Origin: Gracilaria domingensis
Taxonomy: Eukaryota > Rhodophyta > Florideophyceae > Gracilariales > Gracilariaceae
Direction of reading: 5' to 3'
Length of the DNA stretch: 64,000 nt
NCBI GenBank assembly: GCA_022539475.1
Contig: VCMS01000046.1
Coordinates: 19,609 to 83,608 of the forward strand
Part shown: in pieces, positions 201 through 32,200 of the stretch
Layout of the letters: each line of letters begins with the position of its first letter
Numbering within the stretch: the stretch's first letter is position 1
Position numbers and translations under genes: made by a program
The notes under the pieces: generated by a model
What the model was told of the DNA's origin: nothing
The model's input: only the letters and a program-made list of their open reading frames with translations
The model's database searches: none

Positions 201-734
201 ATGAGGAACTGGATAGAGTTTTCGGAGATACGGATGGATACCGTATCTAGCTCTGACTCCGGTGAGTTGCCTGCTCGATTTCAGAAGTTTTCGGAGTTGC
301 TATGGAAACCGATACAGGATATGCGTCATGCGGCAGGGTTCCATGTCGGCATTCACGCGAAACCTGATATTGAACTGACGAAAACCCCTAAAACTTCCGG
401 TAATGCCGAACCTTCTTCGACCAAGTCTGCCCCACCCCCACCTCGTCGAGAGTATATGAACCTCGTGAGCTCCGATAGCGACGAGTTCGAGAAGCCGGTG
501 AATCTTGCGGAGCATGAATCTCGGGTTGCCGGTTACAACATCCAAAAGACTGGTATTGAGCCGCCCATGAAGGGGATATCCAGTCTCCTTCGAATGAATA
601 TGGACAAGGTGTGGAAGGGGATGAGAAAGTCACACTTTGTAGCGTACAACTGTGACATGAAGGACCTGAGGCACACACACGAAACGTTTGTGAATCAGAG
701 TGAGATTTTATGGGTGAGGCACAGCTTGTCCTAA
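201..734 (+). CDS. N-terminal part of the DNA methyltransferase gene (separate frame)
   Basis: The frame is open from 141, but the first ATG is at 201. Residues in the middle are Ser/Pro-rich with acidic patches (SSDSDEFE), as in a linker. The last 30 residues (FVAYNCDMKDL...) resemble the strand and helix that normally precede catalytic motif IV of beta-class amino-methyltransferases. Motif IV itself lies in the next frame, which overlaps this one by 25 bp. I therefore read this as the front of the same gene, disconnected by a one-base frame change near 700-734. I saw no standard slippery heptamer there. Alternatives are a separate small protein or programmed frameshifting. Confidence 0.45.
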   Translation: MRNWIEFSEIRMDTVSSSDSGELPARFQKFSELLWKPIQDMRHAAGFHVGIHAKPDIELTKTPKTSGNAEPSSTKSAPPPPRREYMNLVSSDSDEFEKPVNLAEHESRVAGYNIQKTGIEPPMKGISSLLRMNMDKVWKGMRKSHFVAYNCDMKDLRHTHETFVNQSEILWVRHSLS

Positions 735-1699
735 CAGACCCTCCCTTTAACACTCGAAGGAAGAGGAACAAACGGAATAGTGGTCACGATGTCTTCAGTG
801 AGGAAGACATGATCCGTACGGCTGACTTAATAAGTTCCGCGCTTCGGTCAGGTGGGCACTTCATTATATTCTGTGCCATGGCACAGTTTCATGTGTGGCA
901 CAGGATACTTTCGGAAACGGCGAGTACGAAAGATGAAGCTGGAAGCGAAGGTAAACCAGAACTCATGCCTTCGTTTAAAGTGGATGCGAATCCACTGGTG
1001 TTCATCCGGGATCGCAGTAATGTTGGAGGGAATCCACGGAAGTTTGGGATACAGCCCGTAACGGAGTACGCCGTTCATGGGGTGAAGCGTGGATTGCGAC
1101 CATCGGAGGAAGCCAGTCTTACTCCATTTGAGGAGAACAATTTCATTCCTTCCACTTTCCCGGCTAACAGGAATGTAATTGACCGGGTGCCCAAACCGAG
1201 AGCGGGGGAGTGGTTGACATGGAAGGTACATGAGCCAGGTAGTTCAGTACCAGGTGGGCAGTACATAAGACCGGAGCAGAAGTCGAGGGAGTTGATGAAG
1301 GAGTTGATATGTCGCTTCACAAGACCGGGTGATCTTGTCATGGACATGTTCGCGGGAACTTTTTCTACGGGTATGGCGTGCCTATCGCTGACAAAGCATA
1401 GGAAGTTCTTGGGGTGCGAGAAGAATAGGCCATGTTTCAGCCATGCGAAGCACCATCTAACGACTCTTATGGCCGAAGTTATTCGCGGGGGGAAGAATGA
1501 CATCCTGGTTGAACAGGAGGTGGTGGATGCGGCTTCAACGACCTATGAACGGGTTCCACATCGGGACCGAGGTCGGCTTGAATGGGAGGCTCCATTTGGT
1601 TACCCCCAGTACCAAGTGATGCCTGGACATATTACTCAGTTCCTAGGAAGATACTGGAAGGACTGGACTTTGTCGAGAAGTGTGGACAGCGTACTGTAG
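710..1699 (+). CDS. Beta-class DNA amino-methyltransferase (likely N6-adenine or N4-cytosine)
   Basis: 329 residues from ATG 710. Catalytic motif IV is LVLTDPPFN at residues 6-14. The S-adenosylmethionine-binding motif I comes late, at about residues 206-221 (PGDLVMDMFAGTFSTG), preceded by RPEQKSRELMKELI and followed by RKFLGCEKN. The order motif IV, target-recognition region, motif I defines the beta class known from bacterial restriction-modification and phage enzymes. DPPF is more usual for adenine-N6 than cytosine-N4 (SPP) enzymes. The family methylates exocyclic amino groups in DNA. Only nine residues precede the catalytic Asp, so the usual N-terminus is missing here and appears in the overlapping upstream frame. 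A bacterial or phage origin by transfer is likely but inferred. Catalytic residues look intact. Confidence 0.85.
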   Translation: MGEAQLVLTDPPFNTRRKRNKRNSGHDVFSEEDMIRTADLISSALRSGGHFIIFCAMAQFHVWHRILSETASTKDEAGSEGKPELMPSFKVDANPLVFIRDRSNVGGNPRKFGIQPVTEYAVHGVKRGLRPSEEASLTPFEENNFIPSTFPANRNVIDRVPKPRAGEWLTWKVHEPGSSVPGGQYIRPEQKSRELMKELICRFTRPGDLVMDMFAGTFSTGMACLSLTKHRKFLGCEKNRPCFSHAKHHLTTLMAEVIRGGKNDILVEQEVVDAASTTYERVPHRDRGRLEWEAPFGYPQYQVMPGHITQFLGRYWKDWTLSRSVDSVL

Positions 1700-1736
1700 A
1701 TCTTTGGGAGGGAAGTACCGAGGAGCTCTGAATCTT

Positions 1737-2342
1737 ATGGATATGCATATGCTGTTGACTGTTGAAGCCAATCGCTATCGCTTACATATAGCATCTTCTA
1801 AGATTCGACATCCCCGTGCTGGTATGGGGGTGTTCACGGAACATAAGATATTGGCTGGGGAAACTATCTGTCATTTCTATGGAACTTTGGTATACACGGA
1901 TCTGACGAACCGGAAGGAAAGACACTTAACGTATGGAAGTGGCTGTCTCGGAGCAACTCCAGTGCGGTACAAGTTGTTTTCTATGATGGTCACTGTGACT
2001 GGTACGGAGTTTCTGCACCTGAGGAACAGACCAGGACAGGCTCAGGATAGAAAGGAGAGCGAAGTCTACATTGTCCCGGCGCCTTTTTGTATCGGGGGCT
2101 ACATTAACGACGCCGGATATCATGCCGGGGATCCCGATTTATCGGAGCCCCGGTCAAACAGGACTCGAAGTGCCAATGTGCAGGTGGTGGAAGCGAAGTC
2201 CGTGATACAGTTCAAGTCAGACCTTTCTAACTATGCTCTACTTCGTTGTAGAGCAGTAAGAGATATTGAGAGGGGCGAAGAGTTGTATTTCAACTACGGA
2301 GAGCAGTACGCCTGGGACTGGGCTCTGACATTGGAGCAATAG
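1737..2342 (+). CDS. SET-domain protein (putative lysine methyltransferase)
   Basis: 201 residues from ATG 1737. The frame is open back to 1680 and overlaps the methyltransferase end by 20 bp. Visible SET elements in order: GMGVFTEHKILAGETICHFYG (N-terminal SET core), GYINDAG...RSANVQVVE in the place of the usual NHSC/NxxH pseudoknot strand, and LRCRAVRDIERGEELYFNYGEQY, the classic C-terminal SET motif ending in a catalytic-type Tyr. SET enzymes transfer methyl groups to protein lysines, most often on histones. There is no pre-SET or post-SET cysteine cluster, so substrate cannot be predicted. It begins 37 bp after the methyltransferase stop, and a frame change in the overlap would fuse the two enzymes. 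The pairing suggests a joint chromatin-marking role for the transposon, which is inference. Confidence 0.8.
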   Translation: MDMHMLLTVEANRYRLHIASSKIRHPRAGMGVFTEHKILAGETICHFYGTLVYTDLTNRKERHLTYGSGCLGATPVRYKLFSMMVTVTGTEFLHLRNRPGQAQDRKESEVYIVPAPFCIGGYINDAGYHAGDPDLSEPRSNRTRSANVQVVEAKSVIQFKSDLSNYALLRCRAVRDIERGEELYFNYGEQYAWDWALTLEQ

Positions 2343-2591
2343 ATGAGTTCAGTACCGAATAGAAAGTAAATATGCTTGTGAGTGTTGCAGCTGCCTGCAA
2401 TACGCGTTGTTGTACATGTACACTGGAGCTCTTCATCTGTAACGGCGATATTTGCGACCCATTGGGCACCTCAAATTCCTAAAAAGCAGGAACTGCGGAG
2501 TCTCCCGGAATATCTGAACCATGCACCCCCCCCCCACCCCCTCCCCCCCTCCCCAACAATTTCGTTTCATTACCCTGTTTATCTCCACAAC

Positions 2592-3986
2592 ATGGGTATA
2601 ACGCCGAGAAAGCGAAATAGTACGCAGCGGAACAAGAGTGGACAGAAGAAGAGAAGAGCATCGGATGATACGAATCAGGCTACAAGCACCGCACTTCCTA
2701 AACGGAAGTCGTCCTCGACGAAGGAGAGAGTCAGTGGGCGTCCTTCTACAGGACTCTCTCGCCCATCTCGCAGCGGAGCGTCTTCCGGGATTGCGTCAAG
2801 AATTCGTGGATCAGCGAACGATGTCGTGCCGTCAACTGCCGATAATGCAAATCGTGCATCTGTCTCTGCTCCTCAAGAAGATGAGGTAACTCGGCCCAGC
2901 GGGTCAGGACAGGAGGGCATGACAACTGGAACCGAAGAGGTTCGTATGACACCAAAACCTTCATGTCCCCGGCCGATATCGAAGACCGGAGCTACTGGGG
3001 CGCGGGTTACGCCGCCCAGTGGATCTGGACAACAAGGGACAATGACGAGAAGTCGTGAGAGCCCTAGTATATTAAGATCGTCACGTCCATCCCTGTCTTC
3101 TAGAACTGGGGCCGCTATGAATCGTATCATGCCTCGCAATGGGTCCGGACAAGGGAGAAAGACAATAAGAAATCGAGAGACAACTGATAGACGAGTTACT
3201 TTTCGACCTTCCCCTCTTTCCAGAACGGGGGCCGTTGCAGCTCGTACGAGGCCCAATTCATCTGATATACCATGCCATGGAGGAGGACAGACACGGGAGT
3301 TGGAGCTCGGAGCCGTGCCAAGGGTGGACACAGAACGCCTGCAGCCTCTCGTGTCTAAGGCTATGGCACATGAGGATAGTTCCGATAACGAAATAACACC
3401 GAATCCTGCGGCATTACCGGGGCCTGTCGCCGAAGAAGCTAGGGAAATAACGGAAGATATCCAAACTGGTGTGAATTCAAGCTCTATGAACAGACCTGAT
3501 CTTTTAAATGAACTGAATTGCTTGAAAGAAAAGGTTAAGACGCTACAAGAGGACTTGATGGTTCGGGGAATTCTAGTGAAGGTCGCCCAAGAGCAGAGTA
3601 CGGCTTTGAAAAAGAGGCTTGAAGAGAAGGATCTAGTCATTGAAGGGCTAAGAGGGGCACTGAAACAGGAGGGAGATAGGAGTACACGTGCTGGTGAACC
3701 TGGGCAGACAGGTCGAAAGAAGCATAAAATTGAGGTGTGCGACGAGTTTCGAGGGGTTGCTCGAGCAGTGTATCACAACATGCTGACGTGGGCAAGGAGA
3801 GAAACAAGTGAGCTATGGCTCGAAGGTGAGTCGCTCACCCGAAATTGGGGTAACCGTGCCGAGAAGGTGGAAGACGCAACTGAGAGTGGGGAAGGGCTTA
3901 TTGAGCCGGAGGAAGGTGGTTCATACATGGTTCCTAAAAACCCGTGGAGCTCTTGGGCAGTTTTGGCATGTTCACACCGTCGGTAG
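2592..3986 (+). CDS. Unknown protein with 40-residue repeats and a coiled coil (N-terminal part)
   Basis: 464 codons from ATG 2592 (MGITPRKRNS); the frame is open from 2382 but without an earlier ATG. The first 100 residues are basic and Ser/Thr-rich (RKRNSTQRNKSGQKKRR), looking like a disordered, nuclear-type tail. Residues about 99-230 hold in-frame 40-residue repeats built on P-x-SGSGQ and a basic RTGA-x-x-R end. Near residues 297-356 there is a strong heptad pattern (LLNELNCLKEKVKTLQEDL, then ALKKRLEEKDLVIEGLRGALK), i.e. a coiled coil. I do not recognise a family. Coding character continues after the stop in two further frames (about 3950-4140 and 4105-4986), so this is probably one gene split by introns or indels. 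Confidence 0.6.
   Translation: MGITPRKRNSTQRNKSGQKKRRASDDTNQATSTALPKRKSSSTKERVSGRPSTGLSRPSRSGASSGIASRIRGSANDVVPSTADNANRASVSAPQEDEVTRPSGSGQEGMTTGTEEVRMTPKPSCPRPISKTGATGARVTPPSGSGQQGTMTRSRESPSILRSSRPSLSSRTGAAMNRIMPRNGSGQGRKTIRNRETTDRRVTFRPSPLSRTGAVAARTRPNSSDIPCHGGGQTRELELGAVPRVDTERLQPLVSKAMAHEDSSDNEITPNPAALPGPVAEEAREITEDIQTGVNSSSMNRPDLLNELNCLKEKVKTLQEDLMVRGILVKVAQEQSTALKKRLEEKDLVIEGLRGALKQEGDRSTRAGEPGQTGRKKHKIEVCDEFRGVARAVYHNMLTWARRETSELWLEGESLTRNWGNRAEKVEDATESGEGLIEPEEGGSYMVPKNPWSSWAVLACSHRR
2886..3300 (+). repeat. In-frame tandem repeat, period exactly 120 bp (40 codons)
   Basis: Copies start at 2886 (VTRPSGSGQE), 3006 (VTPPSGSGQQ), 3126 (IMPRNGSGQG) and a decayed fourth at 3246 (TRPNSSDIPC...GGGQ). 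Each of the first three ends in a Ser/Arg-rich stretch and a K/RTGA motif. Spacing is constant at 120 bp although the copies have diverged, which points to old duplication with selection against frame-changing indels. Confidence 0.8.
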
Positions 3987-4104
3987 AGGGGGGGCCAGAT
4001 GCTTTGCTGAAGAAAATGGTTGAAAGCGAGTTGAAGGAGTTGAGCTGGAAGGTATTAGAAAAGCATCTCTTACCGACAGGTGTATACTGGAACTTTGTGC
4101 AGAT

Positions 4105-4986
4105 ATGTGCCTTAGGCAGAGAATGCGGCAGACCATGAGTGACGTCGTGGGCGTTCGTAAGAGAAATACGAGGGATAAACTATTTCTGCTCCTGGGGTAC
4201 GATCTGATTTGGAGAAGAACAAAGCTGGTAGAAGAGAATGCTGACGAACTCACAATGCAGTTGAAGGAAGCGCAGGAGAACATACTGCGTCTTGACGAAA
4301 ATGGTGTACCGAACACTTCATGGTGGAGAAAAGCCCCATTTGTTCGTCTAAAGTACTCCAATGCGGACAATGTCGAGGATATGCCGACGGAAGATCAAGA
4401 CTTGTTCTTCCGAAACCGTGTCGGGGTACAAGTGCTGAAGGAGTTTATTGGGTATGATGTGGAAGACAAGGATACGGGCACCTTTTTAGATGGCACAATA
4501 CTGTTGCTCGCACGTTTGGACGCTTGGGTGTTGACGGTTGTGAGCCTTCTAAGTACGGATGTGTCAAGGGGTGGCCAGAGACAGAAACTGTTTACAAAGA
4601 AGTTTGCCCAACTGCTACCTCTGTGTTTAAAGAATGTTCTGGGGGATGTTAGGCAACGTGTCTTGAGGACCAATTCCAGCGAGTTTCATAATTTTGGAAC
4701 GACAACGGAAGATTGGACTAAGGTTCTTGGTAATGACATGAGAGAGGCTACATTTGGATATCGAATGCCGTCGAACGGAAGACTTTACCTCACTGTGAAA
4801 GAACAATTTTTTATTGACAGTGTGAGCCGAAGATTGGGGTCTATTAGCGATTGCTTCGTTGGTGAATGCGAGGAAGGGGATATGGAGTTCAAGGAAATGG
4901 TCATGAACGATTTCGGAAGTAACACAGGATCACAAGAAAAGGCACCACAAGGTGAACATGTAGAGGATGGAGCCCTTAATGTTTAA
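4105..4986 (+). CDS. Unknown transposon protein, C-terminal part
   Basis: 293 residues from ATG 4105. Contains a short amphipathic stretch (RRTKLVEENADELTMQLKEAQENILRLDENG) and then a globular-looking region rich in Leu, Phe and Trp (GTFLDGTILLLARLDAWVLTVVSLL; FGYRMPSNGRLYLTVKEQFFIDSVSRRLGSI). Ends in an acidic tail. I recognise no domain. Between 3950 and 4140 a third frame (GSFGMFTPSVEGG...LLKKMVESELKELSWKVLEKHL) looks coding and bridges the repeat/coiled-coil protein to this one. Three frames in succession suggest a single long gene with two short introns or two indels. It lies tail to tail with the transposase. Confidence 0.55.
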   Translation: MCLRQRMRQTMSDVVGVRKRNTRDKLFLLLGYDLIWRRTKLVEENADELTMQLKEAQENILRLDENGVPNTSWWRKAPFVRLKYSNADNVEDMPTEDQDLFFRNRVGVQVLKEFIGYDVEDKDTGTFLDGTILLLARLDAWVLTVVSLLSTDVSRGGQRQKLFTKKFAQLLPLCLKNVLGDVRQRVLRTNSSEFHNFGTTTEDWTKVLGNDMREATFGYRMPSNGRLYLTVKEQFFIDSVSRRLGSISDCFVGECEEGDMEFKEMVMNDFGSNTGSQEKAPQGEHVEDGALNV

Positions 4987-5226
4987 GGCTGTACAAGATC
5001 AACGTGCTCAGTTGGTCCTTCATCTGAATCATGATAGAATCGATTGATGTAGAATTGGTGTTGAAACCATTGAAGTGGAGGACAAAAAGGTGGAGCAGGG
5101 TAGTTTGATCGAACAACATGGACAGTTCCCTGTAGTGCAGAAGCCGGAACCATCCCGTACCAAGGAGTTAACTCTACGATAGTCTCCGCTTTGGAATGAC
5201 GAGGGAACGGAAGAGTGTGGTTCTTT
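4987..5226. other. Convergent intergenic gap
   Basis: 240 bp between the stop of the plus-strand unknown gene and the stop of the minus-strand transposase. No further gene seen; presumably holds both 3' ends. Confidence 0.5.
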
Positions 5227-8160
5227 TCATCGTTTGTAGCCCACCGTAAAGATATGCATTTCAATATGTGGTCGATGTTTGTTGCGGGGGGTAAAACCTC
5301 GAAATACCGGACGAATGCCACCTCTGGTGGCAAGTGCAGAATCAAGGAGAGATATTCGAATCAGAGCGACTACCTGGGCAACCCAAGTCTCTGAATCTTC
5401 TCCGCTTACCAATACAGTGGAAAACTTTGGCTTTCTACTGGGACCAAATGCTGGAGAAGCGAAGACACGTTGGATGATGGGGTATTTGGGTCGTCCCAGC
5501 TTAAGTGCCTTAGAAAACGAATCGAAGTGTTCAAGAGTCGGAACGAAACCGCCTTTCACGAGGGCCGAATTCACCAGAGTTATCCTTGTCTTTTCTGGGA
5601 AGTATGTAATAGAGTGCTCATCCAGTGTTTCTTTCACGAGACTGAGGAAAGGAGGAAGGGCCTGTTCACCAATTTGGTCAAGAATCGACCTTGTGTCCGT
5701 ACTTGAGAACATCTCTCTAACAGCAGTCCATGTTTTTGAACTGGACATACTTGAAACAAATTGTTGAAGAGCTCGTAAAGTGAAAGAACGCCCTCTCATT
5801 GCAAACCGAGGAAGCTGTGTGGAAGTTCCTGGTAAACCTGGATTACGCTGGTAAGGAGTATTGCCATTCCATTGCTTTCTAACATGTCCGTGCTCAATGG
5901 AGCGAATAGTCTCCTCCACAGCCGTTGCTGTTCTTCTGGACGTCTTTTTGTAGTGTCTCTTAAATAGCAGGTGTGCATGTTCGTATATGCCTGCGTCGTA
6001 GTACTTGATACTTCCCAGACGGCGAATATCGTCCACGAGATGATCGAGAAGATGAAACTTCAGAGTTCCCAGTCTGGAGGGATGAAAATCCGCCAGAGTC
6101 TTTGTTGCGGAACGCTTGAAGGCTTCAATCTCCGAACTAAGACACAGGAGAGAGCTTTCAGTCCAATACGGGTCACGATTGTATCTGAATAAGGTCGAGA
6201 GCAAGTCCGAGTACTGAGAGAAAACGGTTGTGATTGGGGCAACGTCCTGTTCTTCACAGCATATGTCAAAGAATGCTCCTATGAAGGGAAAGACCATGTC
6301 AAGTGCTTTGTAGTTTTTGGCCTCCAGCATTCCACGGAGACCGTCTTTCGTGAAGATACCATTCAAAGATTTGCCTTTCTCCTGCGTGGAGAAATCGATA
6401 TGTAAACCTTTGGCAGGAGAATCGCGTTCTATGGCAGCTAGAATTGCGTTTGCATGGTTGAGGAGTTGGGTGCGTATCGTTCGAAATGAACGCGATGCAG
6501 ATGTTCCTAATGTGGTGCACAGGGTGTCTGACTGCAGTCTCTCGATTGTGGCCGTTTTCATCAACTTTGAGATGCCGAGATGCAAGTTGTGTAATGGTTC
6601 GAATGAGAACAGACTGTATGGAGACAATCCCGGGATCATTCCAAGGCTTACGGAAGTTTCGAGGAACGAAGGAATGAGAGATATGGAATTTGAACGGATC
6701 AGAGTATCCGCTTGAGATCTCCTCTCCCTCGCACGACGTGGACGTCTTTCCGCCTCGTCTTTTTGTGCATGTTGCAAGATAGCTGTGTATGTCTTTCGGA
6801 TGCTTTTCGTGTGCTTTTGAGAACGTCCGTTGAATGAGGTGGTAATAGGACTGCATAAAGATGAGCGAGGGGCTTTGCATCTATGACACGGGCTTTCCGT
6901 TTTGGTGCCATGAAGAATAGACAGAATGTCCTTAGCCTCAGGAATATCCGCACAATAACTTGCAAGCAGAGGATGGCACACTCGACTTAGTTTGTCTTCG
7001 CCGATGAACTGAAAACCTTTCTGCGTGAGATTTAGAATGGGCTCCAGGACTTGACGAAGAGATTCTTGAAGGATTTGCATCCTGGACTCGCGTAGAGACT
7101 TGCCAGAAACAAATGGCATTGCGTCTGCTTCAGATGCGGAAACCTCGATCAGTGTGGTAGGGAAGTATGCCACTACTGTGAGGTCATCACGGATACACTT
7201 ACGGCGAAGCTCGTCGGAGAAGTTGAGAAATATGAGGTGAAGAGGATAGGCGGTAACCGATGTTTGCTTTAGAGTTGTTGAAGACTTATCGGTGTATACC
7301 TGCAGAAGACCTACGAAAGATTTACTGTAACTTATTTCTTGAGAGTACCACACTATTCTACTATCCAAAGAGCCCATGACCATTTCCTTAAGTTTTGAGG
7401 TGGCGTCTCTTGCGAGAGAGCCGGACATGGGGTGAGATATTTTCGTGGAGTGGGTCTGAGGTATAGGGTGGAAGAATGCGTTTTCGTTGTTAGCCAACTG
7501 GAGCTGTTTCACAAGTGTCTGAACGGGGTCTCTCGTGTAGAGGGTGGCGCTGAACTTACATCCTTCTGGCGAGACAGTTCTGCGATTGAAACCGTCCTTT
7601 GAGGCGTATCGTTCGAAAATGGCGTTCTTCAGTTCTGTACAGCGCTTGGAACTTGTTATGGTCTCGTTGAATCGCTTTTGCGAGAATCGCGGGTCCCGAA
7701 GTAGCCCAATTAGCTCGTCCGCCTCACCATGGCCAAGGTTGGAAGCTACTGAAGCCAGACAAACCGTGAGATAATCCATATGCAAATCACCAAGGGCCTC
7801 CTCAGAAGGCACTGGGCGGGAACTGCTTCCGTGTTCTCGCTCTAATGACGCGGGACCCGGGGAAGGAGAAACACAATGCGAAGTGTCCGGAATAGGAGGG
7901 GCGCACGGAGTGGGGTCGACGATGTCCTCGGACACTGGAGGCTCGGGAAGGCGACAAGGGGCAGTGACCGTTTCGGAAGATGCGGGCGCGGGCGCGGAAA
8001 GCTTGAGACGCTTGCTCCTCCGAATGGACCGGCTATTGTCGTCTTCCAGCGCTGCTTTCAGACGAAACGGGCAATGGTTGACATGCTGTTGAAGAGATAA
8101 GACTCCTCGGCGAGTAACGAAGGGGCTCCCACGCTTCTTATGTGTACAGTAGTAGACCAT
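5227..8160 (-). CDS. Plavaka/CACTA-superfamily transposase
   Basis: Uninterrupted reading frame of 977 residues from ATG 8160; upstream in-frame codons to 8244 add only a low-complexity lead. An N-terminal C2-x-H-C-type zinc finger is visible (YYC...LQQHVNHC, residues 3-30). Then come family hallmarks: VYTDKSSTTLKQ...YPLHLIFLNFSDELRR (about 288-320, first catalytic Asp region), CADIPEAKD...SPCHRCKAP (about 403-431), FEPLHNLHLGISK (about 520-532), and KYYDAGIYEHAHLLFKRHYK (about 719-738). These match the order in Plavaka transposases, cut-and-paste DDE/D enzymes described from basidiomycete fungi and related to CACTA/EnSpm TnpD. Length is typical. No stop codons, so it may be active or recently active. 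Confidence 0.8.
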   Translation of the reverse strand: MVYYCTHKKRGSPFVTRRGVLSLQQHVNHCPFRLKAALEDDNSRSIRRSKRLKLSAPAPASSETVTAPCRLPEPPVSEDIVDPTPCAPPIPDTSHCVSPSPGPASLEREHGSSSRPVPSEEALGDLHMDYLTVCLASVASNLGHGEADELIGLLRDPRFSQKRFNETITSSKRCTELKNAIFERYASKDGFNRRTVSPEGCKFSATLYTRDPVQTLVKQLQLANNENAFFHPIPQTHSTKISHPMSGSLARDATSKLKEMVMGSLDSRIVWYSQEISYSKSFVGLLQVYTDKSSTTLKQTSVTAYPLHLIFLNFSDELRRKCIRDDLTVVAYFPTTLIEVSASEADAMPFVSGKSLRESRMQILQESLRQVLEPILNLTQKGFQFIGEDKLSRVCHPLLASYCADIPEAKDILSILHGTKTESPCHRCKAPRSSLCSPITTSFNGRSQKHTKSIRKTYTAILQHAQKDEAERRPRRARERRSQADTLIRSNSISLIPSFLETSVSLGMIPGLSPYSLFSFEPLHNLHLGISKLMKTATIERLQSDTLCTTLGTSASRSFRTIRTQLLNHANAILAAIERDSPAKGLHIDFSTQEKGKSLNGIFTKDGLRGMLEAKNYKALDMVFPFIGAFFDICCEEQDVAPITTVFSQYSDLLSTLFRYNRDPYWTESSLLCLSSEIEAFKRSATKTLADFHPSRLGTLKFHLLDHLVDDIRRLGSIKYYDAGIYEHAHLLFKRHYKKTSRRTATAVEETIRSIEHGHVRKQWNGNTPYQRNPGLPGTSTQLPRFAMRGRSFTLRALQQFVSSMSSSKTWTAVREMFSSTDTRSILDQIGEQALPPFLSLVKETLDEHSITYFPEKTRITLVNSALVKGGFVPTLEHFDSFSKALKLGRPKYPIIQRVFASPAFGPSRKPKFSTVLVSGEDSETWVAQVVALIRISLLDSALATRGGIRPVFRGFTPRNKHRPHIEMHIFTVGYKR

Positions 8161-8244
8161 GGGAAGAAGAAATGAACGAGAAACGACGACAAAGACTGCA
8201 AGGGAAGGGCGTCCGAAGGGAGAAGGAGGTCGAGCGACAGTCAA

Positions 8245-8524
8245 TATCGACGTGTTGCTCAGAACGGAGAATATATTTTCAGTTTAAATCACGTGCTTTC
8301 GTTCAAAAAGGAACGTAGGTACACGTCGACCTCAACACAAGGGTGTACTTCTCGTATTATCTACCACTGGTTATAAACCTGTGGTTTCCCAACGTTGTAC
8401 GCTGTACACTTGTCCAATCTCGCACAGAAAAATAAATCTCTTCCCTCCGCCGCCGCCCCCGCCCGTCCGACGTCCGATCTTTTGTTACCGTCGTGATCCG
8501 TGCCATCCTCGCGTTCTACTCCGC
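8245..8524. other. Non-coding flank upstream of the transposase
   Basis: Probable promoter and terminal region of the Plavaka-type element. A weak inverted pair (CAAGGGTGTAC near 8340; GTACACTTG near 8400) flanks a short palindrome ACCAC...GTGGT. No convincing TIR or target duplication was identified. Confidence 0.35.
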
Positions 8525-8590
8525 TCCGTCGTACGTTTTTCCTCCCTCGCACTCGCTACGAAGTGCGAGGGCGGAAAAAAGTACGACGGA
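8525..8590. repeat. Long near-perfect hairpin
   Basis: Arms of 29 bp (TCCGTCGTAC... and ...GTACGACGGA) pair with two mismatches around an 8-base loop CGCTACGA. It stands about 280 bp beyond the coding limit of the Plavaka-type element. It may mark an element end or be a separate small foldback sequence. Confidence 0.8.
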
Positions 8591-8851
8591 TTACGAAGTA
8601 GCGTGCTGAGAATGGATTCCATTAAGCGGACATGAAGCGTACCTCATTCTCTTTCTCCGCCCTCGTCGGACGCCTCCATAAAGCGAACAGCATCCGTATC
8701 TCACGGATGTATTCCGTGCAGTCTTTCCGTGCAGTGTTTTCGTACGTGCTTCCATTTCCTTCTACGTATCTTTGTTCTAAACTAACCAATCCTCACCACG
8801 TCTCTTCGCGCTCTGCGACATGTAAACGGCAGGAAAAAGGCTTTGGGTTAC

Positions 8852-8995
8852 TTTTGCGAGTTACTAGGTCCCTCGACTTTTCTAGCGCAACGTTTCTGTT
8901 TTGCTCTTATCAATGGTACGTTCTATCGCATTTCAACTGTATCCAACGGAGCATTGACTAACTTATGGATACTTTCTGCTTGCGTATACAGGAAA
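8852..8995 (+). repeat. 140-bp direct repeat, copy 1, with intron-like signals
   Basis: Begins TTTTGCGAGTTACTAGGTCC and recurs at 9233-9380 with about 95% identity. Inside, ATG|GTACGT (donor at 8916) is followed by TTGACTAACTTATGG, a pyrimidine tract and ACAG ending at 8991, a plausible 76-nt intron with branch site. No convincing protein is read on either side. Confidence 0.6.
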
Positions 8996-9232
8996 ACGAC
9001 CAATTTCATTTCGTTGAGAGGCTCTCAAGATCGATCTCTGGCTGTTCGGGATAGGCGATTCTGGTACTTGGTTGGGACATAGGCTGCTCTTTCGTTTATC
9101 GCATCTTGAGGTATGTTTGCTGCATGGGCATTCTTAGTGTCCTTGGTTGTGAGTTCTCGCTTCGACACCTTTCGCGCTTTACGATGATGGTGGGCTGGTA
9201 ATCTAACCGATCCCTTTCCTTCTTCTTTTTCA

Positions 9233-9380
9233 TTTTGCGAGTTACTAGGTCCCTCGACTTTTCTAGCGCAACATTTCTGTTTTGCTTTATCAATGGTACG
9301 TTCCATCGCATTTCAAATGTATCCAACGGATCATTGACTAACTTATGGATACTTTCTGCTTGCGTATACAGGTAAATGAC
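9233..9380 (+). repeat. 140-bp direct repeat, copy 2, with intron-like signals
   Basis: Partner of 8852-8995, separated by about 240 bp of unrelated sequence. The same donor (9296), branch-like TTGACTAAC and acceptor (9371) are kept, again giving a 76-nt intron. Retention of all splice-type signals in both copies suggests they matter, or that the duplication is recent. Confidence 0.6.
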
Positions 9381-9417
9381 TTTTGATGCGGACGTAGCTC
9401 ACGAGTTGCAGGTGCAG

Positions 9418-9569
9418 GTTCCTCAAGTAGGGAACCATGCATCTGGGCATGGTTCCCTACATGAGGAACGGAGAGGATGAGGCGCTTCGCGCCTCATCCT
9501 CTCGGAGTGCGTATTTGTTCTACCGATACAGCCGATGGTGGACGTGCAGTCTGCGGCATCTGCCGCAGA
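9418..9569. repeat. Three hairpins in a row
   Basis: Hairpin 1: 9418-9440 with 9447-9469, 23-bp arms, one mismatch, 6-base loop. Hairpin 2: 9471-9485 with 9489-9503, perfect 15-bp arms (GAGAGGATGAGGCGC), 3-base loop. Hairpin 3: 9550-9558 with 9561-9569, perfect 9-bp arms (TCTGCGGCA), 2-base gap. All three fall within 152 bp. Confidence 0.8.
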
Positions 9570-10000: not shown

Positions 10001-11044
10001 TATCGGTTACGATATAAGAGGTGATCTCCCGGTCACCTCCTCCTTCAGTAAAGGGTAACCGAGTCCGGCTCTGGACTAAGTTCGCCTGGGCGAAGTGTAC
10101 AACTCCCTCAGGAGGGTCACCGCGTACGGTACGGATTGGATTCATCCCTCGGGATCACTCAGGCAATACTGACCATTGTGGCCTTGCCTTCGGGCTTAAT
10201 TATTCCGTGTCTTCGGACTTTCTGTTTCGTTTACTGTGCACTTGAACTGCTTTCACCACAATTGGTAGCGTTTCTGTTTCTGTATAGAGTTGTGCCGCGT
10301 GGGCTTAATACACATCGTCGTCTCCCGGCGCCGGGTCTGTTCCCGCTTGCCGCACGTCCCGCCGAGGGATTCCTCTCCTTTCCTCCCTTGGTTTTCCCTT
10401 CATTTTCCACTTTTGTCTAGGGCTTACACCGCTCTACGGTACCTTTCCTTCCGACCATTCCGTCACTTCTCGCCGAATTCTTGGATCAGGCCCGTTCACC
10501 CGTCAACCTCCGTAGGTATATCCCGTACCACGAGCGGTCTTACACCGGCACTATCCGTGTTCGGAGGGCTCACCACTGAGTTCACCTCGTCTAGAGACGA
10601 AAGAGAGATCTAAAGAGGGCAAGGACACCAACGCCTTGATAGACGATCCCATCGCTGGGGTTTTGCACTACAGTAAGTAACAGAAAACAAATAAAACACT
10701 CTAGAGAGTCCACTGTTCCACAGTACCTCCCCAAAAACCAATTGATCACTAATCGTGAGACTTCTCGACAAGAACGAGAACGAAAGAAAGAATTCAACCC
10801 GTTCTAAGTCGGGAGACCACTTGTAGTCTGAAGACACGGAATAAATAAGCCCCGAAGGCAAGGCCACAATGGTCAGTATTCTCTGAGTGATCCCGAGGGA
10901 TGAATTCAATCCGTACCGTACGCGGTGACCCTCCTGAGGGAGTTGAACACTTCGCGCAGGCGAACTTAGTCCAGAGCCGGACTCGGTTACCCTTTACTGA
11001 AGGAGGAGGTGACCTGGAGATCACCTCTTATATCGTAACCGATA
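10001..11044. mobile_element. Foldback (MITE-like) element with long inverted arms
   Basis: Left arm 10001-10219 and right arm 10826-11044 are inverted copies of about 219 bp, roughly 94% alike, starting TATCGGTTACGATATAAGAG. Each arm also has internal dyads (AGGTGATCTCC...GGTCACCT). The 600-bp centre holds only short, unconvincing frames. No transposase, so it would be moved in trans if mobile. A single arm plus adjoining DNA recurs at 20471-20735. I see no clear target duplication. Confidence 0.75.
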
Positions 11045-11382: not shown

Positions 11383-11982
11383 TAAATGTCGAGTTTATGT
11401 TTGCTGTTTGTAATGTGAATAACGTTTTACTGAAAAATGGAGAAACAATATTTACCTGAAAATATTTCTTATCAGTTAAAGAGAAGTTCTTGTTATTATT
11501 TACAAAAGAGGAAATTTTCAGAGCTTGATTGGGTTCACTTTAATATCTGTGTGGTCTACATAATAATGTTGACAATGAAATTTAGCTATCGATCAAAATC
11601 GTATGCAAATGATTGTTCAGCCAAAACAGAGCAGAGCTCAATTTTATGTCATAACAACATTTGTGATTGTCTAAGACGACGTTTGAACTGCGCTCCATGA
11701 GAAACAGCCTACCGCTTAATACGTTTAATTACTTATAGTAAGCTAGTGGAGATTCAAACTTTCTGTGTGAAGATAGTAAGTGTTTGACAAAAATGTTTTC
11801 AGAAACTTGCAAACTTGCTTTACTTTTAAACGAGATTTTTCAATGTATTTTTTTTCTATTCTTGTTTTGTGTCTATTAGTATCAAGGTTTGTCACAATAT
11901 AGAATCATTTGAGCCTGAAGTAGACAAAGATGATTTGGATTTTTTAGTCCTGAACATTATTTCCCGCAAGGTCTTGATACTC
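11383..11982 (+). mobile_element. Internal fragment of a PIF/Harbinger element
   Basis: Closely matches the reverse complement of 35497-36149, i.e. the 3' part of the DDE transposase gene of element D and following non-coding DNA. An 87-codon frame (11437-11697) differs from the counterpart in D at only about six residues. It lacks the 63-bp duplication found in D. Both ends of the homology are internal to D, so this is a partial copy with no inverted repeats of its own. Confidence 0.75.
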
Positions 11983-12161: not shown

Positions 12162-13927
12162 ATGCTTATCTTCAACGCTTCGGAAGAATGGCCTACCAAT
12201 GGAGAGGGAACTTTTGATCTTCCTCCCCTTGAATCGGCAGCCAACCCCACAGTGATCAACTGGCGCGGCGTTCGTTTTGCCGATGTCACTAAAGAGCTGT
12301 ACTACGAGAAAGATGGCCTTGAATTCTCCTGCGATTTCAAAAGCATGAATGTTTGCGCCAGGACTGGGGAGTCTCCTGACATCAATCCAACTGCTCTGCA
12401 ATGGCTCTACAAGCATACTCCGGTGCAAGTCAAGTGGGAGAACCTGACAGCCATGAGTGGCCTATACTACATTATGGCCGGTATTTCATTGCGTGAAGCA
12501 GTACAGGCAATTGGTCAGGGCCTCTCCAACTCCGTTCCTCTTCAAGAGGCATTCTATCCAATTTTAGGCTGCCAGGCGATTCAGAATCCAACATATACTG
12601 GGACATATATGCCGAAAGGGAACACAAAGATAGTGATGTGGACAGTAACCTGCATACTCTTACTTTGGCGGTTTTTTACGCTCACAAAGGTCCACAATCT
12701 CAAGGCCTTCTCAAAGCTAACGAGTTTCAGATTGCTCAACTTGAGGACCTTCTTTCTGCTATACGAGAAAATCCCCCGTCTAATACCAAGTATGTTCGTC
12801 TGTGGACAGACGGGGTCAACTCTGCGCACTTGGCGACGAGCGAGACGAAGGAACGTTCAAAATGGATATTCCACGGCTTGCTTCCATACGCCGTGTTTCC
12901 TGTTGCTTGGCTCAGCTCCGGAGAAGAGAAGGACGAGATCAGTATGTGGTCTACGTGTGAGCAAATTCTGGCTGATGGTGCTTTAGGGTGTCTGTTTTCC
13001 ATTTCACAAAGCTCAAGTGCATGCTATCCCTTGATTGGAAAGGAATTTTACTGCAATCGATTGCCAGCGACGGCCGTCAAAACTGTCGGGAATGGGCTTT
13101 CAATCAATCAAAACCTAGCAAAGCTGGCTGCTGCGATCCATTCTGGAGTTCTGGATGATACTGTTACTTATCATATTGCAGATGCCCAAAACTTCATACG
13201 ATTGTCCTACTATATGACAAGGAAAGCAGATGTGAGCATGGCACATGCTGTTAACTGCGAGGAATGCCTCCATGCCACATTCCGAGAACATCAAGGCTTT
13301 CTTACTGCTCTCCATGAGTGTTGCGACCTGTATAGAACTGATACCGACGAAGATCTCCAGTTGCGACTAAACAAGACTTGGATATCTTACCCGTACCCCA
13401 AAGTAAGAGCCAGAAGAGGGTACGTCGATTGGCATGGAATAAGAGAGTTTGCACCCGGAGCTGGAAGGTTTGCCAAGCTAATGCTTCCAGTGTTCGCTGA
13501 GACGTTCAAAGAGAATCTGCACATTGTTGCGATTTCTCATAATGGTCTGCCTAGCTTGGAGTAATGTCTAGTAGTATCGGCATATCCATGTTCAGACGGT
13601 CCCGTGAGATACATGGTTTTGCTCGTTCATGGTCGGAAACTTTTCTGTTTGGACTGCCGCCTTTTCTACTAAGTTAGACTGAACATCAGAGATTTGAACA
13701 GAGTACATGACGGACTACAAGGACGTTCCTTGAAAGGAAAGATCAGCGATCCTTTTAGGCATCCGAAGATGGACGAGCTACTAGAGAGCTTCGAGTTCAG
13801 TGTGTTACAAGATGTCTCTTCTGTCAATTGGGGAATGTGGGGTCTCAAGAATCTCACAGAGGACGAGGAAGAACACCACACCATTGCAAGCAGTGTAACT
13901 GAGAAATTCAAGTCCTTAACGGCATAG
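12162..13927 (+). CDS. Spliced gene of unknown function
   Basis: Starts at ATG 12162 (MLIFNASEEWPTNGEG). Reading runs in one frame to about 12565, then in a second frame (LPGDSESNIYWDIYAEREHKD...) to 13560, so an indel or tiny intron lies near 12.57 kb. An intron at 13561-13689 (GTAATG...TACTAAG...CATCAG) joins the second frame in phase to a last exon ending at 13927 (stop TAG), rich in acidic and Ser residues. Total about 540 residues, no signal peptide or obvious membrane segment. The stretch RLWTDG...KERSKWIFHGLLPYAVFPVAWL faintly recalls HET-type domains, too weakly to name. Could be a degenerate host gene or element cargo; no TIRs seen around it. Confidence 0.5.
13561..13689 (+). other. 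Putative intron of the unknown gene
   Basis: GGA|GTAATG donor, TACTAAG branch-like site 20 nt before the CATCAG acceptor, 129 nt long. Joining gives GA+A in frame with the downstream exon; the ORF otherwise stops directly at the donor. Confidence 0.5.
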
Positions 13928-19061: not shown

Positions 19062-19758
19062 CGAAATCGCTGCCAATGGCTGCAAATTCAATCGGTTTGA
19101 GATCAGACCAATCATCGTAGTAATTGTGTCGCAATCTTTGACCCAATAGAATTGCATAGCAAAGATAGGCCACATAATCTGCACCATCTATCTGAAGATG
19201 AATGTTTGCATGCCGCTGCATGTGGCGGGGAGCGCATAGCAGCGTAACAGCGGTTTCGCAAATGCCCATAATACCGCCAATTTTGGTGGTCACTCTCTAT
19301 CTGTCTCACGGCCACCATGCCTCGTTTCAACCGCCGACGTCTCCCCGGTTGTCCTCAAACTCGCCGGCCAACACTACAGACAGTACAAACACCTCTAAAA
19401 CGGCCAAACGCACTGCAGGCGCCGCGCCAGTCGTGCCTTCATCTCCACCGCCTCCAGCAGCACCAGCACCATTTTCAGTGCCACAAACCTTGCGCTTCTT
19501 TGGTCCCTCTTGAGTACACGCAAAGCCGCTCCTCCACGCCTACATACGTGCCGCCTGCCGTCCAGATTGCCAGATTGTCTTCCTCCGCCAGGTTTCCTGT
19601 CGTTGCGCCCACTGGGCGCACCATCTTGTTCCCTGAGAGCACCCCGTCTGCTGGACCCAACACTTGTAGCCTTCCGTCAGCACCGTGCCTGTTTGTTCGT
19701 CCTTGGAAACACTAAGAAAAGCTGCGCATCTTTGTTTACAAATATTGTTCAATGTGGT

Positions 19759-22104
19759 ATGGCAGAAAGCGCAGCAATCGCTCAGTGTCAATCGTCTAAT
19801 GCCAATGCACATGTAGAAAGCAATACTTTGGAGTGCAACTCTGAAGAGTCACATACTCTCCTCAACGACGATAATGACGACGAAGAGTTTCAAATTACTG
19901 CACTAGGTGCGCCAGAACTGCGTGACTTGTATGCCAGCAACCCCTACTGTTCCAAATGGCGCGATAACAGTGGTCTACATCTATCGAAAGAGGCTCTTAT
20001 CATAAGGTCCTACGCCCACAAGAAAGAATTGAGGTTGTTTCTATTGTTTATGAACACATCCTTTTTCAATTGTATACGCATTTGGACGAGCACAGAGCTG
20101 ATCAAACGGGGAAAGCGAAAACGACAGTTACGAATGCACGAAATGCTGGCCTACGTAAGGCTTGAACTCGCTACGTCAGTACACAAATTAAACAGATTGA
20201 AAGACTACTGGTCGACTAATGATCTACTAGGTATACCGTTCTTCAAAAATGTATTGGGACGCGATGCGTTCTTGAGCATAAGATCCGCTCTTCGAGTATA
20301 TCCTCATTAGGAAGAAGATGTGGCTTTAGAGGACCCAGTTTGGCACAGTCGCAAACTTTTAGAGCATTTTGTGCGCAACAGTGCAACTTTGGAAGTACCT
20401 ATGGGGGTGAGTACACTTGACGAAAATACATTGAGGTGCAAGGTGCGGACTCGCGCACGCTCTTACATGAAATCGAGGGATGGAGCTAGAACGTACCGTG
20501 CGCGGTGACTCTCCGGGAGGAGTGGTGCACTTCGCGCAGGCGAAACTGGTCCAGAGCCGAACCCGGTTACCTTTTACTGAAGGTGGAGGTGACCGCGAGG
20601 TCACCCCTTATACCGTAACCGGTAAATTAGTTAAACTAAATTAAATAATCTAATGCACGCTTGTGCGAAGCGGCACACGTGGTGTACGTGACCAGCGCGC
20701 GTCAGCTGCCAGTAAATAATTCGACTGTCGAAACAATTCCTCTGTGAATAGACCCAAATCAGACCACGTGTACCCACGATTACTCAATACCACGTGCCAC
20801 ACCATGGCCAGTCCAGCGGACATTCCGACATCCAACCACCTCAAAATATCCCAGTTTTGGGCCAAGTTTCATACTTTTCTCTTCTACGATCAAACCTCGG
20901 TGCACGAGTTATGAGTATCAACTTCGCTGATACCGCGTTACCGCGTTTCCTCTACATCCGGCTGGTTGCGAAATCATCATCGTCAGCGTTGTGGTGCGCA
21001 CAAGTAGCGCACCAGACGAAACTGCACCCAACTCCTGAAAATGGACCACTGATTGTGACAGATAAATTTTATACTCGTCATGTTCTTGCCCAGCAGTTGG
21101 CGAGTTTGAGTGACGGAGAATATAAATTAATTGGCACCGTACGTTTCAACAAAGTGGATGGCTTGAATAGGCCTGCACTAAAGGAAGCCATCGAACGTAT
21201 GAAGCACGCAAAGCGAGGGGACTGGTGTTTGGTTCAGGTATATGAGAAGCAAAACCCTTCAGAAACCACAGTCTCGGTGGCCAAAAATACTGGATTTGTG
21301 GTCTTCAAAGACCGCACGGTGGTCACTTTCTATACGAACGATTTGGAAGAAACGCGAAGATTTCGAATTCAGAGCCCGGAAGATCAAGCTGTTCGATGCA
21401 TTCATGGCCTGGCGGCGTTACCAAGATGGACAGGAGATGAGTCTATGAGCAGGACTATACGACGTGTACCTGCAGTGATCGTAGCGTATAACCTCTTCAT
21501 GAACGTCGTGGACTGCTTCGATCAATTGCGCTCAACTTCAGCTACTTTGAGAAAAGAGAAACGAGTGACAATGAGTCTCCTCACCTTTATATTAGATGCC
21601 AGTGTCATCAACGCACATGCGTTGTTGAATGCGATCTCCAAGAAATGAGAACCTATTATTGATGTCATCACCATGAAACATCGGATAATTCAACAGCTGG
21701 TGGCCGAGCATGTGGACTACAGACAACCTCAAAGTTCTGTACTGCCTTCCGCTCTCTTGGCGGAAGCCGTACCGGATGACTCTCGATCCACATCAAACGA
21801 TTCTCGCAAGCATATCTTACTTCAAACCCAAGAACGCAAGAGCGTTCTTTGCGCACTGTGCAACCTCACTGCGAAAACTGGTCGTGGAAAGTGCTCCATG
21901 TATTCTTGCAGCGAATGCAAGCAAGGCTTCCACGTCAATTGTTTCGCTTTCTATCACAACAAGGAAGACCTGCGCGAAATTCGTCCTGATCTGTATAAAG
22001 CAATAAGAGATGCACAACTACAGTTGTGCACAAAAGCAAAGAGGAAAAGAAAGAACGCAGTGACTTCATCGCTTGCTACCGCTAAAGCTGTGCACAAGAG
22101 CTGA
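19759..22104 (+). pseudogene. piggyBac transposase, interrupted
   Basis: Probable start ATG 19759 (MAESAAIAQ), followed by an acidic N-terminus (NDDNDDEEF) typical of the family. The first domain reads well to 20307 (RLKDYWSTNDLLGIPFFKNVLGRDAFLSIRSALRVYPH), meets an in-frame TAG, then continues (EDPVWHSRKLLEHF, MGVSTLDENTLRCK...TRARSYM) until about 20470. There a foldback-family arm is inserted. Coding resumes near 20.9 kb: TDKFYTRHVLAQQL, GTVRFNKVDGL, FYTNDLEETRRF, and VPAVIVAYNLFMNVVDCFDQLRS, the conserved C-terminal piggyBac core. After a stop at 21646 a last frame (21673-22104) has the cysteine-rich zinc finger CALC...CSECKQGFHVNCFAFYH. It would excise and insert at TTAA. Inactive now because of stops and the insertion. 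Confidence 0.85.
20471..20735 (+). mobile_element. Single arm of the foldback family inserted in the piggyBac transposase
   Basis: Matches 10900-11150: CGCGGTGAC...TTCGCGCAGGCGAA, GGTTACC..TTTACTGAAGG, GAGGTGACC, then the shared AAATTAGTTAAACTAAATTA and CACGTGGTG. No inverted second arm nearby. It splits the transposase between the SLDE-like motif region and the catalytic core, so it inserted after the piggyBac copy landed or in its lineage. Confidence 0.7.
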
Positions 22105-29214: not shown

Positions 29215-32200
29215 GTAGTGGCATCGAGCTCCCTGGTTAAGCCAGCCTCTTCAACCCAATCTCTGAAGATGGAAGAAGACGGCCAGAGACGCATTCCTCG
29301 CTTCTACGCAAAACGAGGGGAAGATTTCATTCTTTGGCAAATGCGCTTTGAGGCGCTACTGGAGTCAAAGGAATTACTTGAAATGGTAACAGAAGACCAA
29401 TTGCAGGATCGTGAAACATCTGCGCTCGGAGATGAGCAACAACTCAAACTTTCTGAGGCAAGAATGTTTCTAGTACAAGCGCTAGGTGACAAACCCCTTC
29501 GTACGATTGCAACAGATCGGCGCAACCCGTAGATAATGTACTCGAAGTTGAAGGAAAGGTATGCAACAGTTAATACATCAACTCGTGTGCAACTCCAAAC
29601 GGAATTGCATCAGAAGAGGTTCACAGACTCTTCTACGATGTCCGAGTACATTGATGGAATGGAATCTATCTTTAATCGTCTGAATGCCATGGATTCTGCC
29701 GACCAGGAATCAATGCAGGTAGCTATATTACTTGAAAGCTTTGAGAGTGCAGCAGAATCTCCCTACGGAGCAGTAATTAGCGCACTGCAGACGCTTAAAG
29801 ATTCTGAACTAACATGGGAGTCTGGAACAGCTCGTTTACTTCAAGAATATTCTATTCGGCACTCTCCATCAGCAATGCAGACGGACGAGGGCAATGACAG
29901 GACTGAGCGAGCCTTGAGAACAAAATCCAGCATCAAATGCTTTAATTGCGGAAAGTTCGGACATTATAAGAGAGAATATCGTAAGGGTAAGGAGAGAAAC
30001 AGAGACCGCAACGGCGTGCAACAGTTTGCTCTGGTGACAAGAGGCAGTGAACAGAACTGAGTGTTCATTATCGACTCAGGAGCTACCCGACACATCGTGA
30101 ACAGCCCTACTTTGGCCAGGAACTTCCGTCCAGCAACCCCTAGGACCATTACATTAGGTGATGGAAGGAGTGTTGTTTCAACTACGGTCCGAAACATCCT
30201 GGTAAAAGAGATGAACCCAAGGCCACTAGGGATTTCCCTTCCACTTAGGAACGTCATTTTGGTACCTGAGCTTGACTGCAATCTAATTTCCTGTCGGGCA
30301 CTGGCTGGTGATGAAATTGGAACGATCATCAAGAACAATGAGTGCAAATTGATATGCCAGGGCATCAGCATTACTCTCCAGAACAATGATGATGGACTCT
30401 ACAAATTGAGGGGGTATGTAACGCCACTTGTCTCTCCGGAGCAAGCTAGAGCAGCCACTACAACGAAAGAAACTGGTGTAGAGCTTTGGCATTGTAGATT
30501 TGGTCATTTGGACCGCAACCGGATCCGAAAGATAGAAAAGGAGAGCGCAGTTAGTGGCTTGGACCTATTGGTGAAAACCGACGAAGGCCTGAAATGCGTC
30601 CCCTGCATCGAGGGAAAGATGTCTAGGCTGTCATTGAATGAAAGAGGCTCTGAACCTTTTGGAAGTCGGAGAGATAATATACTCCGACATATGTGGTCCA
30701 CTGAATCAACAAAGCATTGGAGGTAATAGGTATTTTATAACCTTCACTGACGGGCGCTCGGGTTACAAGTCTGCCACGCTTATGAAACGGAAAAGCGAGG
30801 CCCAGGAAGCATTCGTGGCATTCCACAGATCCTTTGAGAGGAAGTATAGTTGTAATTTGCAACCCCTATATTCTGATAAGGGTTCAGAATATGTTGGCAT
30901 GCAAAGGTACCTTAGGAAACTCGGAATCCAGTGGATAACTTCTGCACCCCACACCCCGCAACAAAACGGGGTTGCAGAGCGTCTCAACAGGACATTGATG
31001 GATATGGCTCGATCCATGTTACGACATGCTGGTTTACCCCCCAGATTTTGGGGCGAAGTTCTAATCACAGCATTTAATCTTCGAAATGTCATTGGCACAG
31101 TCCAAAATGATGGCAAGACTCCAATTGAAGTCCTGACGGGGAGAAAGCCTTTGTAGGAAACTTGTGAATCTTCGGATGCGAGATATGGATGCACAAGCCT
31201 TTGAGGAAGAAACTTGAACCGAAAGCGACTAGAGGCATTCTCTTCAGATGTCTACCCTATAGAAACTACAGGGTGTATGATATCAACTTCAGAAGGATCC
31301 TTAAGGTGCGCCACATACGTTTGAATGAGATGGTCTTTCCAGGGTTTGAGGTATTTAATAGCCCGAGAAAGATCCTCAGTGAAACTAACAACCATGAAGA
31401 TGGAGTCAGTGAGATTATGATTATCGAAGAAGGAGATGACGGCCACGAAACTGGCATGGCGAAAACTGGTAGCGGTAATTCTTCGGCACCTAATGAGGAT
31501 ACATCTGAAGACAGTAACCAAGAAGTTACCCCTGGGACACATGAAAGTAACTCACCGGATCATTCTACAGCAAGGCAGTTCACTGAAGAAGAATTGGAAC
31601 TACTCACTCATTACCCAATACGCCGATATCCGGATAGAGAAACACGACCACCATCTCGTTTCGATGCATCTAGAGTAGCACGTACTGAGGATAATCAAGC
31701 GCACAAACTGGAAACAATTCCGAAAAATATATCTGAAGCTCTATCTCTACCCTACGCAGCCCACTGGAAAAAGGCCATTGAAGATGAACTGAATACACTT
31801 GAAGGTGTATCAACCTGGCGACGGGCACAAGTTCCAGCTGGACAACGCGTAATCCAATCGCGGTTCGTGTTTGTGAAGAAGAAACTTGCCGATGGCAGCC
31901 TGGATAAGTATAAAGCCAGACTAGTGGCTAAGGGTTGTCAACAAGGCGATGTTGATGATCTATATGTGCCAGTAGTGGACTATGGCAGTGTGAGAGTCGT
32001 AATCGCTCTTTTTGCCATGCTGGGATACGAAGTACATCAGATGGACGTAAAGTCGGCCTTCTTGAATGGTTCATTAGCCGCAGAAGAGCCGGTGTACATC
32101 TATCCGCCCCAGGGTTTGGACATGGGACTGAGAAAAGGTGAAGCTTTACAGCTCCTCCGCGGTCTGTATGGTCTGAAGAACTCGAACAAAATCTGGGCCA

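Follow-up and report, generated by a model that had tools for sequence, protein, structure and literature searches.

A Plavaka-type transposase gene beside genes for a DNA amino-methyltransferase and a SET-domain protein in the red alga Gracilaria domingensis: a candidate chromatin-writing mobile element

How might a transposase gene and genes for two putative chromatin-modifying enzymes have come to lie side by side in a red alga? In a 64,000-nucleotide stretch of the Gracilaria domingensis genome (contig VCMS01000046.1, positions 19,609 to 83,608; hereafter, the window), the first ~8.2 kb contain a minus-strand gene for a Plavaka-type transposase, convergent with a plus-strand block that encodes a beta-class DNA amino-methyltransferase, a SET-domain protein and an accessory protein (Table 1). 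What we observe is a set of gene families in a given order and orientation, with a common strand composition and with an accessory gene that does not keep to a single frame. We consider it somewhat probable that a single Plavaka-type element jointly carries the transposase, the amino-methyltransferase, the SET gene and the accessory gene, because they share a strand composition, because the cargo genes are tightly spaced on one strand and because a compositional border lies just upstream of the transposase.

The strand composition sets this region apart from the rest of the window. The plus-strand GC skew (the excess of G over C) is 0.16 over positions 500-8000, compared with -0.069 to 0.070 in 485 overlapping 7.5-kb intervals starting after position 8000. 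Depending on the offset, the top-scoring G-rich segment covers 448-8319 or 474-8269. In a control made for one of the four offsets, in which 500-base blocks drawn from 8501-64000 were placed in random order and orientation, none of 2000 shuffles reached the observed value of 308, the highest being 226. Fourfold-degenerate sites show a G-rich plus strand in every one of the block's six frames, with values of 0.17 to 0.51, the minus-strand transposase included (0.20); eight other frames of the window gave -0.19 to 0.12. Because the silent sites are G-rich on the plus strand even in a gene read from the minus strand, the bias goes with the DNA strand, whichever way the gene is read. The junction between cargo and transposase (4987-5226) is also G-rich on the plus strand (0.23), and the segment has its right border 110-160 bases ahead of the transposase start, in a place where one expects an element to end.

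The transposase frame (1005 amino acids (aa) if read from an upstream TTG, 977 from the ATG) matches the Pfam Plavaka family PF18759 at profile positions 41-273 of 325, with an E value of 1.8e-18, or 2e-18 with the longer frame. A preliminary description of this DNA had recognized a Plavaka transposase in an uninterrupted frame, and the 977 open codons and the Pfam match agree with it; the word "uninterrupted" holds for the transposase alone, since the accessory gene is broken up and so, probably, is the methyltransferase gene. The sole relative returned, P0006, is 45% identical to the query along 54% of its length (5.7e-146; 7992 candidates scored). Comparing the translation by eye with known motifs, and without a structure, we take the candidate catalytic D, D and E to lie in YTDKSS (residue 289), CADIPEAKD (403) and IYEHAH (725), with a CHRC motif at 425 between the latter two. 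The motif PLHNLHLG at 522 reads H-x2-H, a spacing close to, though not quite, the H(3-4)H named in the accessible part of PMC12730594. A comparison of the transposase with solved structures gave no meaningful match.

The methyltransferase, in open reading frame (ORF) 710-1699, matches Pfam N6_N4_Mtase (2.2e-16) and contains, in order, TDPPF (residue 9), RPEQKS (187) and VMDMFAGTFSTG (210). Because TDPPF precedes the S-adenosylmethionine (AdoMet) motif, the enzyme belongs to the beta class, and the family match and motif order confirm the earlier assignment, in which TDPPF came first and an FAG motif late. Its best matches among PDB sequences are 5hek and 5hfj, which are adenine-specific and labelled DpnA (5hek, 3.1e-9), and CcrM matches at 4e-7. 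In a Foldseek search with a structure model usable for the core only (mean predicted local distance difference test score, pLDDT, 54.6), M1.HpyAVI scored 6.9e-12 and ranks 1-14 were held by M1.HpyAVI and CcrM; N4-cytosine enzymes appeared only from rank 19, the bdelloid N4CMT structure 8s9o being at rank 26. Because the best sequence-matched structures and the top fold matches are adenine enzymes, the predicted product is likely N6-methyladenine (6mA) rather than N4-methylcytosine (4mC). The protein also matches phage families (phrog_67, 1.5e-24), with hits to 231 of 50,697 phage records and a best identity of 28.9% among the matches listed.

Upstream of the methyltransferase, base 201 lies outside its frame, and ORF 141-734, which uses another frame, overlaps it at ~704-731. 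The two are perhaps one gene; a Pfam search of 111-731 gave no match at E 10. These overlapping open frames point to two frame changes, at ~704-731 and near 141, and no homologue ties the frames to the methyltransferase gene, which is probably interrupted. A further plus-strand frame without stops covers bases 1 to ~141, a faint indication that the block may extend leftward past the start of the window.

The SET frame begins 37 bp past the methyltransferase stop, and ORF coordinates and Pfam matches together support the tight plus-strand block, with this spacing and a convergent transposase, that had been described before. The match to Pfam SET (9.6e-9) spans the whole profile (1-105 of 105), as expected of the SET-domain protein first proposed. 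No match was found among the phage records. The best match among solved structures is KMT2A, with an E value of just 0.0058, and H3K4 as the target of the protein is therefore a guess.

Downstream, ORFs 2592-3986 and 4105-4986 form one gene, as judged from translated comparisons, because a single protein, P0007 (hypothetical protein FGB62_257g02 of Gracilaria domingensis), matches both, in order and in different frames. P0007 is the sole relative returned for ORF 4105-4986 (1.3e-52, 45% identity); the transposase search, too, gave a single relative at ~45% identity. In a six-frame comparison, residues 2-68 of P0007 align to 3675-3944 (4.5e-5) and residues 95-327 align to 4069-4815 in another frame (5e-63). 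A collinear piece in the third frame (residues 68-81) is weak alone at 20.8 bits (19.7 with short-query settings), a score of 21.4 or more being reached by at least 5 of 500 shuffled versions of P0007. The accessory gene thus occupies at least two frames and probably three. All inferred frame changes, here and upstream of the methyltransferase, share one sense, and the breaks are compatible with decay, with systematic indel errors in the assembly or, in the accessory gene, with introns. The product of ORF 2592-3986 has a basic, repeat-rich N-terminal half and a heptad-like stretch when its translation is read by eye, without a coiled-coil program. This agrees with the repeat/coiled-coil protein of the preliminary description, although the ORF is only the 5′ part of an interrupted gene. 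A structure model of P0007 (mean pLDDT 34.4) was useless for a fold search.

Table 1. Features of the locus at the left end of the window (positions are those of the window)
Feature	Position	Strand	Remarks
Upstream ORF	201..734 (ORF 141-734, ATG at 201)	+	177 aa counted from the ATG; without a family; possibly N-terminal part of methyltransferase gene, other frame
Beta-class DNA amino-methyltransferase, adenine-type by motif	710..1699	+	Pfam N6_N4_Mtase, PDB matches, Foldseek
SET-domain protein	1737..2342	+	Pfam SET 9.6e-9; motifs GMGVF, YINDAG, EELYFNYG
Accessory gene, 5′ part	2592..3986	+	basic, repeat-rich, coiled-coil-like by eye; P0007 match
Accessory gene, 3′ part (ORF 4105-4986)	4069..4986	+	other frame than 5′ part; P0007 match
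Plavaka transposase, single open frame, 977 aa	5227..8160	-	Pfam Plavaka 1.8e-18; P0006 match
G-rich plus-strand segment covering cargo and transposase	448..8319	.	right border 8269-8319; skew 0.16 over 500-8000

Several observations weigh against a single functional element. First, neither its ends nor a second copy turned up in the window. No terminal inverted repeat with a target duplication was detected between left stretches 1-710 and 4950-5260 and the right flank at 8150-9500, and Plavaka-type termini (TGT..ACA or CATCA..TGATG with a 2-3 bp duplication) gave no pair between 1-710 and 4960-5260 and 8150-9500, nor between 1-700 and 4950-5260 and 8161-9000. The stretch 1-700 held 2 candidate inverted repeats, a chance-level number given the 0-3 found per shuffle (10 shuffles), and 4950-5260 held none (0-1 per shuffle, again with 10). 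Within the 64-kb window there is no second copy, the transposase giving self-matches only. Second, the skew is uneven: 2343-2591 (-0.27) and 2501-3000 (-0.084) are C-rich, the excess at silent sites comes to only 1.1 and 1.6 standard errors for the upstream ORF and the SET gene, and the skew fades in the first 450 bases, beginning at ~450, inside a reading frame. Strand skew can also have other causes. Third, the accessory gene is broken up, as is probably the methyltransferase gene, and the cargo may thus be in decay next to an open transposase frame. Fourth, the activity of both enzymes is in doubt. A glycine of the AdoMet motif, present in all five relatives of the methyltransferase (P0001-P0005), is replaced by F in the window, and methylation activity is therefore not assured. 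These five relatives are distant (24-48% identity), none being named as eukaryotic in a search that gave no taxonomy and could reach proteins of ~181-576 aa. At the site where SET domains usually carry NHxC, the SET protein reads YIND, and its activity is uncertain. Finally, one mark may not depend on the other, in that inhibitors of H3K4me3 hardly altered 6mA in one amoeba, according to the accessible part of PMC12695648.

The earlier proposal of one Plavaka element with all of these genes is partly supported, by the strand composition, the tight spacing and the border upstream of the transposase, but is not shown by repeats, duplications or a second copy in the window. The left end of the element is probably outside the window, and the missing repeats thus neither prove nor refute the unit; its right end would lie near 8.3 kb. 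An element end at 5.0-5.2 kb, the case named in the preliminary description as telling against the unit, was sought in the repeat and duplication scans and was not found. An exact 12-mer pair (225-236 and 8691-8702), the sole match in the scan of 1-710 and 4960-5260 against 8150-9500, was considered for the element ends and dropped, being located in a frame, lacking a target duplication by eye and not resembling Plavaka termini. Near the right border of the G-rich segment, there is a hairpin at 8525-8590 with 29-nt arms (93% complementary), and just right of the presumed element end a 149-nt direct repeat (8852-9000 and 9233-9380, 95% identical).

Could the locus instead be what is left of a decayed mobile element, or owe its broken frames to indel errors in the assembly, and have no present function? 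We think this possible but unlikely, and it is compatible with the other readings. Homology places the accessory gene in at least two frames, probably three, and the overlapping frames upstream of the methyltransferase suggest two more changes of the same sense; however, the transposase is open throughout, the domains score well despite the breaks, and introns are possible. Less probable still is a chance neighbourhood, in which a Plavaka element happens to adjoin methyltransferase, SET and accessory genes that belong to the host, be they ordinary or horizontally acquired. An annotated Gracilaria domingensis protein is related to the accessory gene, and no relative named from that alga was returned for the methyltransferase or the transposase, within the length limits and missing names of the search. 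Moreover, the third-position skew of the coding strand differs between the cargo (0.21 to 0.39) and the transposase (-0.16), and tight spacing is by itself a weak argument; algal genes can be compact. Against a chance neighbourhood of this kind stand the transposon-rich surroundings, in which six of ten scanned frames pass the Pfam cut-off for a transposon family and two more fall below it, and the compositional unit, which ends upstream of the transposase and not between transposase and cargo. We likewise give little credence to the idea that the plus-strand block belongs to some other large element (an endogenous DNA virus remnant or a giant repeat of intron-poor genes) that Plavaka flanks or beside which it inserted: the block may run past the left edge of the window and the methyltransferase matches phage families, but the junction with the transposase shares the G-richness, no viral Pfam family was found in the scanned frames (a search that used no giant-virus library), and short exact-pattern scans confirmed no relatives in IMG/VR. 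None were confirmed in GTDB contigs either.

The surroundings of the locus contain further mobile sequences. Frames with transposon families occur at 30061-32673, which we take to be Copia-like, at 19510-21648 (DDE_Tnp_1_7, presumably piggyBac-like), at 35835-36971 (DDE_Tnp_4) and at 62025-63266 (integrase core, below the cut-off). On the minus strand, 40838-43725 combines a phage-integrase-like frame below the Pfam cut-off with a reverse transcriptase frame, presumably a DIRS-type retrotransposon. At 11437-11700, an 87-aa frame is nearly identical, by eye, to the C terminus encoded by the DDE_Tnp_4 frame. Inverted arms at 10001-11044 (201 nt, 96% complementary, 642 nt apart) begin with TATCGGTTACG, and a terminus resembling them, with three mismatches, lies at 20601-20624 between two DDE_Tnp_1_7 frames. 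Among the other genes, a single 845-aa frame (50672-53209) fuses domains of the triose-phosphate-transporter and polysaccharide pyruvyl transferase types, and two overlapping frames at 12162-13564 resemble a single unassigned gene that changes frame near 12638; the stretch 12638-13561 matched no Pfam family. Rfam and tRNA searches of the window found nothing.

If the Plavaka-type element does carry all four genes, how might it use them? In the mechanism that we envisage, the DDE transposase would cut and paste the whole unit, the methyltransferase (DPPF, adenine-type) would place N6-methyladenine on the DNA of the element, and the SET protein would methylate histones there; the coiled-coil-like accessory protein may recruit or join both enzymes, and the marks would hold the element in transcription-permissive chromatin. 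The two layers of marks are suggested by the domains of the proteins, and we regard this permissive mechanism, as such, as improbable. Anti-silencing is the most economical idea, by analogy with what the accessible part of PMC12730594 proposes for TET/JBP of fungal transposons. The opposite role, self-silencing, would also be possible, as bdelloid N4CMT shows in marking transposons for silencing (PMC8885841). We tentatively offer, as a rather doubtful proposal, a red-algal Plavaka element with a dual chromatin-writing cassette (adenine methyltransferase and SET, possibly in one polypeptide or transcript) that stamps 6mA and an active histone mark in order to escape silencing. If this were true, an adenine DNA writer and a histone writer would bring two co-occurring marks, 6mA and H3K4me3, under the control of one selfish element, which would be a natural system for testing whether 6mA promotes expression. 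In literature searches that reached few subscription journals, no report of Plavaka paired with an amino-methyltransferase plus SET was found.

How does this locus compare with known systems? In the AMT1-encoding species of a set of 18 unicellular eukaryotes, according to the accessible part of PMC12695648, 6mA is located downstream of transcription start sites, in overlap with H3K4me3; the writer in that system is an MT-A70 enzyme, of a family other than that of the window methyltransferase. Bdelloid N4CMT, considered with the SETDB1 variants (PMC8885841, as far as accessible), is likewise a bacterial beta-class amino-methyltransferase in a eukaryote and tied to histone methylation, but it is a host gene with a chromodomain and SPPY (4mC) that marks transposons for silencing, whereas the present enzyme has DPPF and lies beside a transposase. 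The Plavaka-flanked giant repeats of Amoebidium (PMC11244446) also place Plavaka beside intron-poor gene clusters; they differ in that many of their genes are tyrosine recombinases, with matches in dinoflagellates or red algae, and the accessible part of that paper reports no methyltransferase and SET pair. Among transposons with epigenetic cargo, HarbingerS and MuDR of Phytophthora likewise combine a DNA transposon with a gene for a SET histone methyltransferase; they belong to other superfamilies, and the accessible text of PMC12730594 mentions no DNA amino-methyltransferase in them. The preliminary description had drawn a comparison with KDZ transposons. TET/JBP cargo does occur in some Plavaka families, but Plavaka is grouped with EnSpm/CACTA-like transposons and not with KDZ (Kojima 2025, PMC12730594, in the part accessible). 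The locus resembles the PlavakaB families of Agaricus bisporus and Gymnopus confluens, which have a Plavaka transposase and a gene for a DNA-modifying enzyme, TET/JBP (PMC12730594); those elements are fungal, encode an enzyme that oxidizes 5-methylcytosine (5mC) and have known ends and target-site duplications, whereas here the ends were not found and the enzymes are a writer-type amino-methyltransferase and a SET protein. As far as the accessible sources go, the reported transposons with epigenetic cargo bear one kind of chromatin enzyme each, which in Plavaka is the 5mC-oxidizing TET/JBP; the locus described here would combine two.

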